NCBI RefSeq assembly: GCF_000011385.1
Contig: NC_005125.1
Span: 2,418,001-2,482,000 of the forward strand
From: Gloeobacter violaceus PCC 7421
GTDB taxonomy: Bacteria; Cyanobacteriota; Cyanobacteriia; Gloeobacterales; Gloeobacteraceae
Length of the DNA: 64,000 nt
Direction: 5' to 3'
The notes beneath the pieces were generated by a model, which saw only the letters and a list, made by a program, of their open reading frames with translations, searched no databases and was not told the DNA's origin. Shown piece by piece: positions 20,791 to 23,051 of this stretch; the first letter of the stretch is position 1, and every line of letters starts with the position of its first letter. The position numbers and the translations under genes are program-made.

Positions 20791-21939
20791 ATGGCCCTAC
20801 TGACCAAAGGCTTTGAAGTCGAGATGTATACCGGTACCGCTGCCGGGGATGTTGTCGGTTTGTCGCACCGCATCGTGCGGGACCTGCCCGGGTTCATGCT
20901 CGAACCCGACCGGCGCAATGTCGAGTACGCCACCGAACCGCTCACCGGCTACGACGACCTGCTCTGTGCGCTGGTGCACCCGCGCTGCCAGCTGCGGCGC
21001 TATCTCAAGACGCTGGGGGACTACACGCTTATCCCGGGCAGCGCCCTGGCCCTGAAGCACGACACGGCCCGCTTCTTGCGTTCCGACCCCGACAATCCCT
21101 ACCACACCCGCATCGAAGAGCAGCACGGCACCCGGGTGGTCACTTCGAGCATCCACATCAATTTCGGCATCGCCGAGGCCGAGGACATCATCAAAGCTTG
21201 CCGGCTCCTGCGCCTCGAAGCGCCGGTGGTGCTGGCCTTGAGCGCTTCTTCGCCCTTTTTTAATGAAGAAGCGAGCGGGGCGCACTCGACGCGCTGGCTG
21301 CGCTTTCCGCGCACCCCCGAGCAGGTGCCGCTGTTTTTGAGCCACGCCCATTACATCGACTGGGTGGAGGAGCAACTGCAGTTGGGGACGATGTTCAACG
21401 TCCGGCATCTGTGGAGTTCGGTGCGCCCCAACGGTGCGGACCGGCCCTACCGCATCAACCGCACCGAGCTGCGCATCGCCGATCTGATCGCCTCGCCGCC
21501 GGTGCTGTTGGGGATCACGGCCCTGGTGGAGACGCGGCTGTTGGCGCTGCTTGCAGGCGAAATCCCCGACCCGCTCGCCGGTGCGTTTACCCCCACAGAA
21601 CTGGTCGAGATGACCGATCGCAACGAGCGGGCGGCGGCGGCCGACGGCCTCGATGCGCGCCTGATCGATTGGCAGACCGGCCGCGAGTCGAGCGTGCGCG
21701 AGTGGACCGAGCGCTGGCTGGTGCAGGCGGCACCGGTGGCTGCCGAGCGCGGCTTCGAGCGCTATTTGCCGGCGGTCGAATCGGTGCTTGCCTACGGCAA
21801 CGAGGCGGACCGCTGGCTGGCCGCCTACCGCTCCGGGGTCTCGATACGGACGATTTTGCAGCAGGCCGCCCGCAGACTCGAAGCCGAGGAAGCCGAATTG
21901 CGCGCGCGGCTTTGCGTCGGTGCTCCTTTGCCTTGTTAG
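20791..21939 (+). CDS. gshA: Glutamate-cysteine ligase, cyanobacterial type
   Basis: A 382-residue enzyme catalysing the first step of glutathione synthesis, the ATP-dependent joining of glutamate and cysteine. It resembles the cyanobacterial GshA family, which is only distantly related to the E. coli enzyme. Recognisable segments are KGFEVEMYTGTAAGDVVGLS at the N terminus, TRVVTSSIHINFGI and RLEAPVVLALSASSPFFN. It starts 21 bases after the OmpR-type regulator, so redox-linked co-regulation is possible. The partner gshB is not in the window. A second enzyme of the wider GCS2/YbdK family is encoded at 38889. Confidence 0.85.
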   Translation: MALLTKGFEVEMYTGTAAGDVVGLSHRIVRDLPGFMLEPDRRNVEYATEPLTGYDDLLCALVHPRCQLRRYLKTLGDYTLIPGSALALKHDTARFLRSDPDNPYHTRIEEQHGTRVVTSSIHINFGIAEAEDIIKACRLLRLEAPVVLALSASSPFFNEEASGAHSTRWLRFPRTPEQVPLFLSHAHYIDWVEEQLQLGTMFNVRHLWSSVRPNGADRPYRINRTELRIADLIASPPVLLGITALVETRLLALLAGEIPDPLAGAFTPTELVEMTDRNERAAAADGLDARLIDWQTGRESSVREWTERWLVQAAPVAAERGFERYLPAVESVLAYGNEADRWLAAYRSGVSIRTILQQAARRLEAEEAELRARLCVGAPLPC

Positions 21940-22031
21940 ATGCCGCGCTCTCCTGCCTATCGGGGGACAGAGCGAGTCCGGGCGACGGGTTGGTTAGATT
22001 GGAATTCAAGGTTAGTGCAAAGGAAACTTCC

Positions 22032-22526
22032 GTGAAAAAAGCCCCCGTATCCTTCGCGATTGCTCTGGTGGTATTGTTGAGCGCCTGTGGCGGTGGTGAG
22101 ACGACCACCACGACCACGACCACCGAAACCACCCCCGCTCCCACCGAGCCCAGTGCCACCGCTCCGGCAGAACCCACCGCCTCGGCGCCTGCTGAGCCCG
22201 CCGTCCCTGCCCCCGGCGAGGGTCTTGTCGTCAAGATGGGTTCAGATACGGGCCAACTGGTCTTCGTGCCGGCAAAGCTCACCGTCAAGCCCGGCGACAA
22301 AATTGTCTGGCTGATGAACAAAGCCGGTCCCCACAACGCCGTTTTTGACGCAAACGTCCCCGACCCGGCTGCCGCCAAGGCGATGGCGCTCACCAAGCTG
22401 CTCAACAAGCCCGGCGACAAACTCGAAGTGACCGTACCGGCAAACGCCAAACCCGGCGACTACGCCTTCAACTGCACGCCCCACAAGTCGGCGGGTATGG
22501 TCGGGGTCCTAACCGTCCAGCAGTAG
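22032..22526 (+). CDS. petE: Plastocyanin with lipoprotein-type signal
   Basis: A 164-residue blue-copper protein. The type I copper ligands are His101 (GPHNAVFD), Cys148, His151 and Met156 (FNCTPHKSAGMVG), in the plastocyanin/amicyanin arrangement. The N terminus has a short basic start, a hydrophobic core and LLSAC, a good lipobox with Cys19, followed by a Thr/Pro/Ala-rich linker of about 45 residues. It would carry electrons from cytochrome b6f to photosystem I, probably tethered to the outer face of the cytoplasmic membrane. The GTG start at 22032 has AAAGGA upstream. Ordinary plastocyanins have a cleavable signal and no linker. Confidence 0.82.
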   Translation: MKKAPVSFAIALVVLLSACGGGETTTTTTTTETTPAPTEPSATAPAEPTASAPAEPAVPAPGEGLVVKMGSDTGQLVFVPAKLTVKPGDKIVWLMNKAGPHNAVFDANVPDPAAAKAMALTKLLNKPGDKLEVTVPANAKPGDYAFNCTPHKSAGMVGVLTVQQ

Positions 22527-22566: not shown

Positions 22567-22720
22567 TTGGCTGTCCGGTTCAGAGGACAAGAACTGAGGC
22601 GCGAAGTGATGCCTTCGTATTTTGTCTGGATCAAAGCCTGGATGGAGAATCTGAGCGATGTCGAGAAGCAAACTTTGATTGAACTGCTGACAAAGCTACG
22701 TTCAGGCCTCTGCGCGATAC
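22567..22720 (+). pseudogene. Possible MarR-family C-terminal remnant
   Basis: This short stretch reads YFVWIKAWMENLSDVEKQTL followed by IELLTKLRSGL. It resembles the last helices of MarR-type regulators, where LSxxExxTLxxLLxKLR is typical. No DNA-binding helices precede it, and the frame merges into an FAD-oxidase remnant. It is probably a scar of a deletion that joined two genes. The match is weak because so little remains. Confidence 0.4.
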
Positions 22721-23051
22721 AAAAATCGAAGTTCAACAGCTTGATGGAGCACTCGTCCATGGCGCCGCCGAGCGGGGCGCGTTCCAACCCTCGGCGGCGC
22801 CGTATCTACTGCATCTTGTGACACCGGCCATCAAAGCGCCCATGGCGCAGATCACAAAAGCGACGCAGCAAGCCTTCGCGTCATTCGGGGACACCTACAC
22901 CGGCGAGGCTTACTACAACTTCCTGCGCGGCGATGAGCAGCAGCGGGTAACGCGGGCTTTTGGCGACGCGAAACACGGGCGGTTACGAGAGATCAAAGGC
23001 CGGTTCGACCCGGCCAATGCGTTTCACCTCAACCTCAACATCGAACCTTAG
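22701..23051 (+). pseudogene. C-terminal remnant of a BBE-type FAD-linked oxidase
   Basis: From 22701 the frame reads RPLRDTKIEVQQLDGALV, then FGDTYTGEAYYNFLRGDE, and ends with LREIKGRFDPANAFHLNLNI. The last part is the berberine-bridge (BBE) signature that closes FAD-linked oxidases, where the FAD-binding half lies upstream. That half is absent, and a MarR-like fragment abuts instead. Only about 115 of 450 or more residues remain, so this is a pseudogene. Confidence 0.6.

Follow-up and report, generated by a model that had tools for sequence, protein, structure and literature searches.

Lipobox plastocyanin in Gloeobacter violaceus, a candidate lipid-tethered electron carrier, and lipoboxes on PsbO, PsbV, and PsbV2 in the Gloeobacterales

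The window analyzed here is a stretch of 64,000 nucleotides from Gloeobacter violaceus PCC 7421 (NC_005125.1, positions 2,418,001 to 2,482,000 of the forward strand), whose genome (G000) is a single contig of 4,659,019 bases. It contains a plastocyanin gene whose product has a lipobox at the end of its leader. The gene, its parts, and its upstream neighbor are as follows.

20791-21939, plus strand: glutamate-cysteine ligase gene (GCS2), upstream neighbor of the lipobox plastocyanin gene
22020-22026, plus strand: Shine-Dalgarno-like AAGGAAA, 5 nt before the GTG start, read from the sequence
22032-22526, plus strand: lipobox plastocyanin gene, GTG start, TAG stop, 164 amino acids
22032-22085, plus strand: predicted type II (lipoprotein) signal peptide, residues 1 to 18, V(M)KKAPVSFAIALVVLLSA
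22077-22088, plus strand: lipobox L16-S17-A18-C19, with the Cys invariant in 8 of 8 Gloeobacterales orthologs
22086-22088, plus strand: codon of C19, the predicted lipidated N terminus of the mature protein
22089-22223, plus strand: linker of ~45 residues, low-complexity Gly/Thr/Pro/Ala/Glu by composition, with low pLDDT and no secondary structure
22224-22523, plus strand: plastocyanin (cupredoxin) domain, residues 65 to 164, from TIGR02656, the structure model, and Foldseek
22332-22334, plus strand: copper ligand His101, from sequence and alignment
22473-22499, plus strand: copper loop C148-T-P-H151-K-S-A-G-M156, from sequence and alignment

The G005 ortholog has an ATG start at the equivalent residue. 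The glutamate-cysteine ligase gene also lies directly upstream of the lipobox plastocyanin gene in G005, G003, and G006. On the 3′ side, positions 22567 to 23000 of the window contain nothing but short or interrupted frames, which may be remnants of a mobile element, and an NAD-binding gene (NmrA-like by eye) lies beyond them at 23051.

The window gene encodes a genuine plastocyanin. Its product scored 118.7 bits against the plastocyanin equivalog model TIGR02656 (cut-off, 87.85) and 78.3 bits against PF00127 (cut-off, 21.2); the models for halocyanin (TIGR03102, 31 bits versus a cut-off of 93.8), amicyanin (TIGR02657, 24.2 versus 110.2), and pseudoazurin (TIGR02375, 35.5 versus 109.85) all gave scores below their cut-offs. 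The match to auracyanin B had an E value of 5.4e-5 versus 3.7e-27 for plastocyanin, so auracyanins are not the closest relatives. A sequence-only reading of this DNA had placed all four copper ligands, and alignment bore this out: His101, Cys148, His151, and Met156 (CTPHKSAGM) follow the type 1 copper pattern His...Cys-x2-His-x4-Met, are invariant in a 19-row alignment, and are shared with other cyanobacterial plastocyanins. In an AlphaFold2 model, pLDDT was mostly 95 to 97 for residues 65 to 164 and ~50 to 63 for the leader and linker. In Foldseek, plastocyanins were the best matches (TMt, 0.87 to 0.91), with Anabaena plastocyanin (2gim; TMt, 0.87) at the top. The protein thus resembles canonical PetE (TIGR02656; Anabaena 2gim and 1fa4) in its fold, copper ligands, equivalog-level score, and ~50% identity to 2gim, but PetE is soluble and has a signal peptidase I leader, whereas the leader of the window protein ends in a lipobox and is followed by a 45-residue linker. 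It also has Lys after the His ligand, where Anabaena plastocyanin has Arg. Residue 147 (22470 to 22472), directly before the copper Cys, is Asn, where plastocyanins usually have the Tyr83 equivalent; Tyr is retained in the soluble paralog of G. violaceus, and His, Asn, or Phe occurs in some other Gloeobacterales copies. Docking or rate could differ in the window copy.

The leader has the hallmarks of a lipoprotein signal. We looked for a basic n-region, a hydrophobic h-region, and a lipobox Cys at position 15 to 35. The leader KKAPVSFAIALVVLLSA-C19, with KK in the n-region and LLSA immediately before C19, conforms to the PS51257-type rule, whereas all five soluble paralogs tested fail it. The LLSAC ending picked out by the sequence-only reading therefore stands, as do the roughly 45 low-complexity residues that it had noted after Cys19: T/P/A/S/E/G make up 96% of the segment that runs from Gly20 to around residue 64, which was modeled without structure. 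Both Lgt (E value, 2.5e-77) and signal peptidase II, LspA (6.5e-37), are encoded in the genome. In an alignment of eight Gloeobacterales lipobox plastocyanins, L16, A18, and C19 are invariant and the linkers do not align. Because the Cys is invariant in eight orthologs despite unalignable linkers, and the lipobox is absent from the five soluble paralogs and from 173 of the 176 distinct plastocyanins surveyed outside the order, we take the lipobox to be more than chance. At the level of sequence, the canonical lipobox, the presence of Lgt and LspA, and conservation across the order give strong support to the earlier prediction that this plastocyanin is lipid tethered.

The tethered copy is not the only candidate carrier in this cell. 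A second plastocyanin, encoded 62 kb from the window gene (G000:C1:2501814-2502113), has an ordinary AxA signal, as expected of a soluble protein, and two c6-like cytochromes that score just below the NCBIfam PetJ cut-off likewise have ordinary signals. These three proteins rule out the idea that every carrier in G. violaceus is tethered and make the tethered copy an additional carrier. The gene for the soluble plastocyanin is ~2 kb away from psbV and psbV2, and a number of other families in the class (e.g., G058, G043, G056, G022, G070, and G039) share this petE-psbV neighborhood; going by position, therefore, the standard petE is the soluble gene, with the window gene as an extra copy. The genome also encodes a third small cupredoxin of 111 amino acids (L003:1495-1830, minus strand, at ~172.5 kb), which scores below the plastocyanin cut-off and adjoins a gene for a 203-amino-acid protein with a twin-arginine-like leader. 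Other Gloeobacterales have small cupredoxins like it.

Plastocyanin was present in all nine Gloeobacterales genomes surveyed. Eight carry the lipobox form: G000, G001, G002 (Candidatus Cyanaurora vandensis), G003, G005, G006 (ES-bin-141), G007 (ES-bin-313), and G008 (PMM_0068). Eight of the nine genomes carry an intact plastocyanin with an ordinary signal; in G008, the second copy is cut by a contig end and its leader is unreadable. In Aphanocapsa lilacina (G004; assembly 94% complete), we found the soluble plastocyanin only and no lipobox copy. A tree placed the soluble proteins of the Gloeobacteraceae inside the lipobox group, a topology suggesting that the soluble copy descended from a lipobox copy. 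We did not retain this interpretation, since with ~100 alignment columns neither a single lipobox clade (p-AU, 0.115) nor a single soluble clade (p-AU, 0.239) was rejected, and since the soluble gene sits in a petE-psbV neighborhood seen elsewhere in the class; either form may have come first. Residues shared before the copper Cys suggested that the two plastocyanins within a genome had undergone gene conversion, but permutation of the genome pairing did not support this (16 of 120 permutations were as extreme for the C-terminal part and 7 of 120 for the rest).

Lipoboxes were not confined to plastocyanin in this order. PsbO has one (LTGC and similar) in 9 of 9 Gloeobacterales genomes (L338 to L347, including L343, G000:C1:3899666-3900304), as does PsbV; for PsbV2 the count is 8 of 9, the exception being G008. 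In G. violaceus, the two cytochrome genes are adjacent, at ~2.4996 to 2.5007 Mb.

L244:4588-5139, minus strand: PsbV2, lipobox LLAGC
L244:5173-5697, minus strand: PsbV-like cytochrome, lipobox AVAGC

Elsewhere in cyanobacteria, PsbO is generally known as a signal peptidase I protein. PsbV had ordinary AxA signals in 26 genomes outside the Gloeobacterales. For the Gloeobacterales PsbV proteins, whose scores fall short of the NCBIfam c550 cut-off, the name is based on similarity, on a PsbV2 neighbor that scores above its own cut-off (in G. violaceus), and on matches in the PDB to cytochrome c550. Matches to PsbU in the order were weak, and those that we read had no lipobox; one, over its first 121 residues, had no Pfam match, and PsbU was accordingly kept out of the lipobox set.

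Outside the Gloeobacterales, we read the N termini of 176 distinct plastocyanins, at loci taken from a named collection and from a sample of 388 genomes; this survey drew on the best-scoring matches listed, so that low-scoring families such as the marine picocyanobacteria are thinly sampled. Among the matches listed, 3 of the 176 combine a lipobox with a long linker, and all three (G326, G388, and G390) belong to one family, which by its relatives (the Halothece MAG L072, and L066) is Halothece-like. A further pattern match, L241, was discounted by eye because its lipobox lies upstream of the likely true start of the protein. A tree of 121 plastocyanins grouped the three lipobox proteins of the Halothece group in a single clade (100/98) within the family's soluble proteins, far from the Gloeobacterales. 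The sequences thus point to an independent origin in this family, the lipobox plastocyanin having apparently evolved twice. The lipobox gene of G388 and of G390 stands in tandem with the soluble one, immediately after it. In G326, only the 3′ part of the soluble gene is left (L243:6260-6540, minus strand), lacking the first His ligand, as a pseudogene directly upstream of the intact lipobox gene; searches of that genome gave no further match to the plastocyanin family. G326 thus appears to have the lipobox protein as its sole intact plastocyanin, and the lipobox form therefore seems able to serve as the only plastocyanin of a genome. The Halothece-like family, which we take to be thylakoid-bearing, on that assumption contradicts the notion that tethering is exclusive to thylakoid-less cells and suggests that the absence of thylakoids is not a requirement. 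Two other loci came up in the survey: a MAG named Chloroflexaceae (L065, JAAUTE010000068.1) has an ordinary cyanobacterial plastocyanin and is probably a mislabeled or mixed bin, and Spirulina subsalsa FACHB-351 (L095) has two adjacent plastocyanin genes, both with ordinary signals.

The Gloeobacterales are the deepest photosynthetic cyanobacteria, and their photosynthesis takes place on the cytoplasmic membrane. We think it probable that the window protein is a plastocyanin turned lipoprotein, leashed at the periplasmic face of that membrane as part of a wider anchoring of lumen-side photosynthetic proteins. From features of the sequence and the model (the Sec-type signal, lipobox, linker, copper site, fold, and conservation), we infer lipidation, an inner-membrane location, a leash function, and the partners. 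Lgt would attach diacylglycerol to Cys19 and LspA would cut before it, leaving the mature protein on the periplasmic face with its copper domain on a leash of ~45 residues. Such a flexible linker could span some nanometers, and the domain could swing between neighboring membrane complexes, carrying electrons from cytochrome b6f to photosystem I, to a terminal oxidase, or to both, within reach of the membrane. It would work alongside the soluble plastocyanin and the two soluble c6-like cytochromes, giving one leashed and one free pool. Since the soluble carriers persist, the leashed copy would add a function or a place and not substitute for soluble transport.

Retention was the reason that the sequence-only reading offered for the tether, namely, that it would keep the carrier from being lost into the periplasm. 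Part of this argument gained ground: the lipoboxes on PsbO, PsbV, and PsbV2 of the same order give it unexpected support, and their simplest reading is that they would hold proteins at the photosynthetic membrane where the periplasm is open and there is no closed thylakoid lumen. As a full explanation it fell short. Soluble carriers coexist in the same cell, so a tether is not required for a carrier to exist there, and a lipobox plastocyanin arose separately in the presumably thylakoid-bearing Halothece-like family. Retention is a plausible cause of tethering, and the rationale is incomplete.

In another reading, the two plastocyanins divide their labor by pathway, with the tethered copy serving one branch (e.g., respiration and a terminal oxidase, or a segregated membrane domain) and the soluble copy and c6 serving photosystem I, much as has been proposed for the two auracyanins of Chloroflexus. 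Both paralogs are retained in nearly all Gloeobacterales, the Tyr83-equivalent residue differs between the two in G. violaceus, and Chloroflexus offers the precedent of a tethered blue copper protein beside a soluble one (PMC3150298). However, a later Chloroflexus proteome study assigns the auracyanins in reverse (PMC9316378), so that the auracyanin split is itself unsettled, and the window has no oxidase or respiratory gene near the lipobox plastocyanin gene, whose neighbor encodes glutamate-cysteine ligase. We regard such a division as unlikely, though less so than the alternatives that follow.

The position of the gene, apart from photosynthesis genes, would fit a different proposal, in which the protein is a cupredoxin anchored in the outer membrane for copper buffering, oxidative defense, or electron transfer across the periplasm, like Laz of Neisseria, a lipidated azurin that also has a long low-complexity linker. 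An outer-membrane location of the lipobox plastocyanin is possible, but the proposal as a whole is improbable: the protein exceeds the plastocyanin equivalog cut-off, the one intact plastocyanin found in G326 has a lipobox, and the co-anchored PsbO, PsbV, and PsbV2 belong to the photosystem II of the inner membrane. We give hardly any credence to a fortuitous lipobox, with signal peptidase I freeing a soluble protein that has a disordered N-terminal tail. Lipidation is a prediction, and the Ala at −1 would suit signal peptidase I, but Leu is at −3, the Cys is invariant in 8 of 8 orthologs while the linker diverges completely, the soluble paralogs do not conform to the lipobox rule, and the Halothece-like family has lipoboxes in parallel.

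Among known proteins, the closest parallels to a leashed plastocyanin are partial. Chloroflexus aurantiacus has a pair of auracyanins (AuraA and AuraB), one water soluble and one membrane tethered (PMC3150298), and so is likewise a thylakoid-less phototroph with one soluble and one tethered blue copper carrier; auracyanins, however, belong to another cupredoxin family and serve alternative complex III and a type II reaction center. In halocyanin of Natronomonas pharaonis, a plastocyanin-like blue copper protein, mass spectrometry supports lipid modification of the N-terminal Cys (PMC2945643), a modification only predicted for the window protein; halocyanin is archaeal, its lipid is diphytanylglycerol, and the window protein reaches only the 31 bits noted above on the halocyanin model. 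CyanoP, CyanoQ, Psb27, and Ycf48 are lumenal photosystem II lipoproteins (PMC8038367) and thus also lumen-side cyanobacterial photosynthesis proteins held by a lipobox lipid, but they are assembly or extrinsic factors known from thylakoid-bearing cyanobacteria, whereas the window protein is a candidate electron carrier. The papers searched, mainly open-access main texts, did not describe plastocyanin, PsbO, or PsbV of Gloeobacter as lipid anchored and yielded no experimental localization of the G. violaceus lipobox plastocyanin. Provisionally, we consider the order-wide cyanobacterial lipobox plastocyanin, apparently evolved twice, and the lipobox PsbO, PsbV, and PsbV2 to be new; the principle of a tethered blue copper protein is itself known.

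The lipobox set supplies concrete, testable candidates for how the Gloeobacterales hold soluble lumen-side proteins near the cytoplasmic membrane, and the lipobox plastocyanin would be the natural leashed-carrier counterpart to the soluble plastocyanin. We tentatively suggest, at somewhat less than even odds, that thylakoid-less cyanobacteria anchor PsbO, PsbV, PsbV2, and one plastocyanin by lipid to the cytoplasmic membrane, in an arrangement either ancestral to the closed lumen or a substitute for it, with the Halothece-like leash an independent development. The set raises the possibility that lipid anchors were lost as the thylakoid lumen originated.
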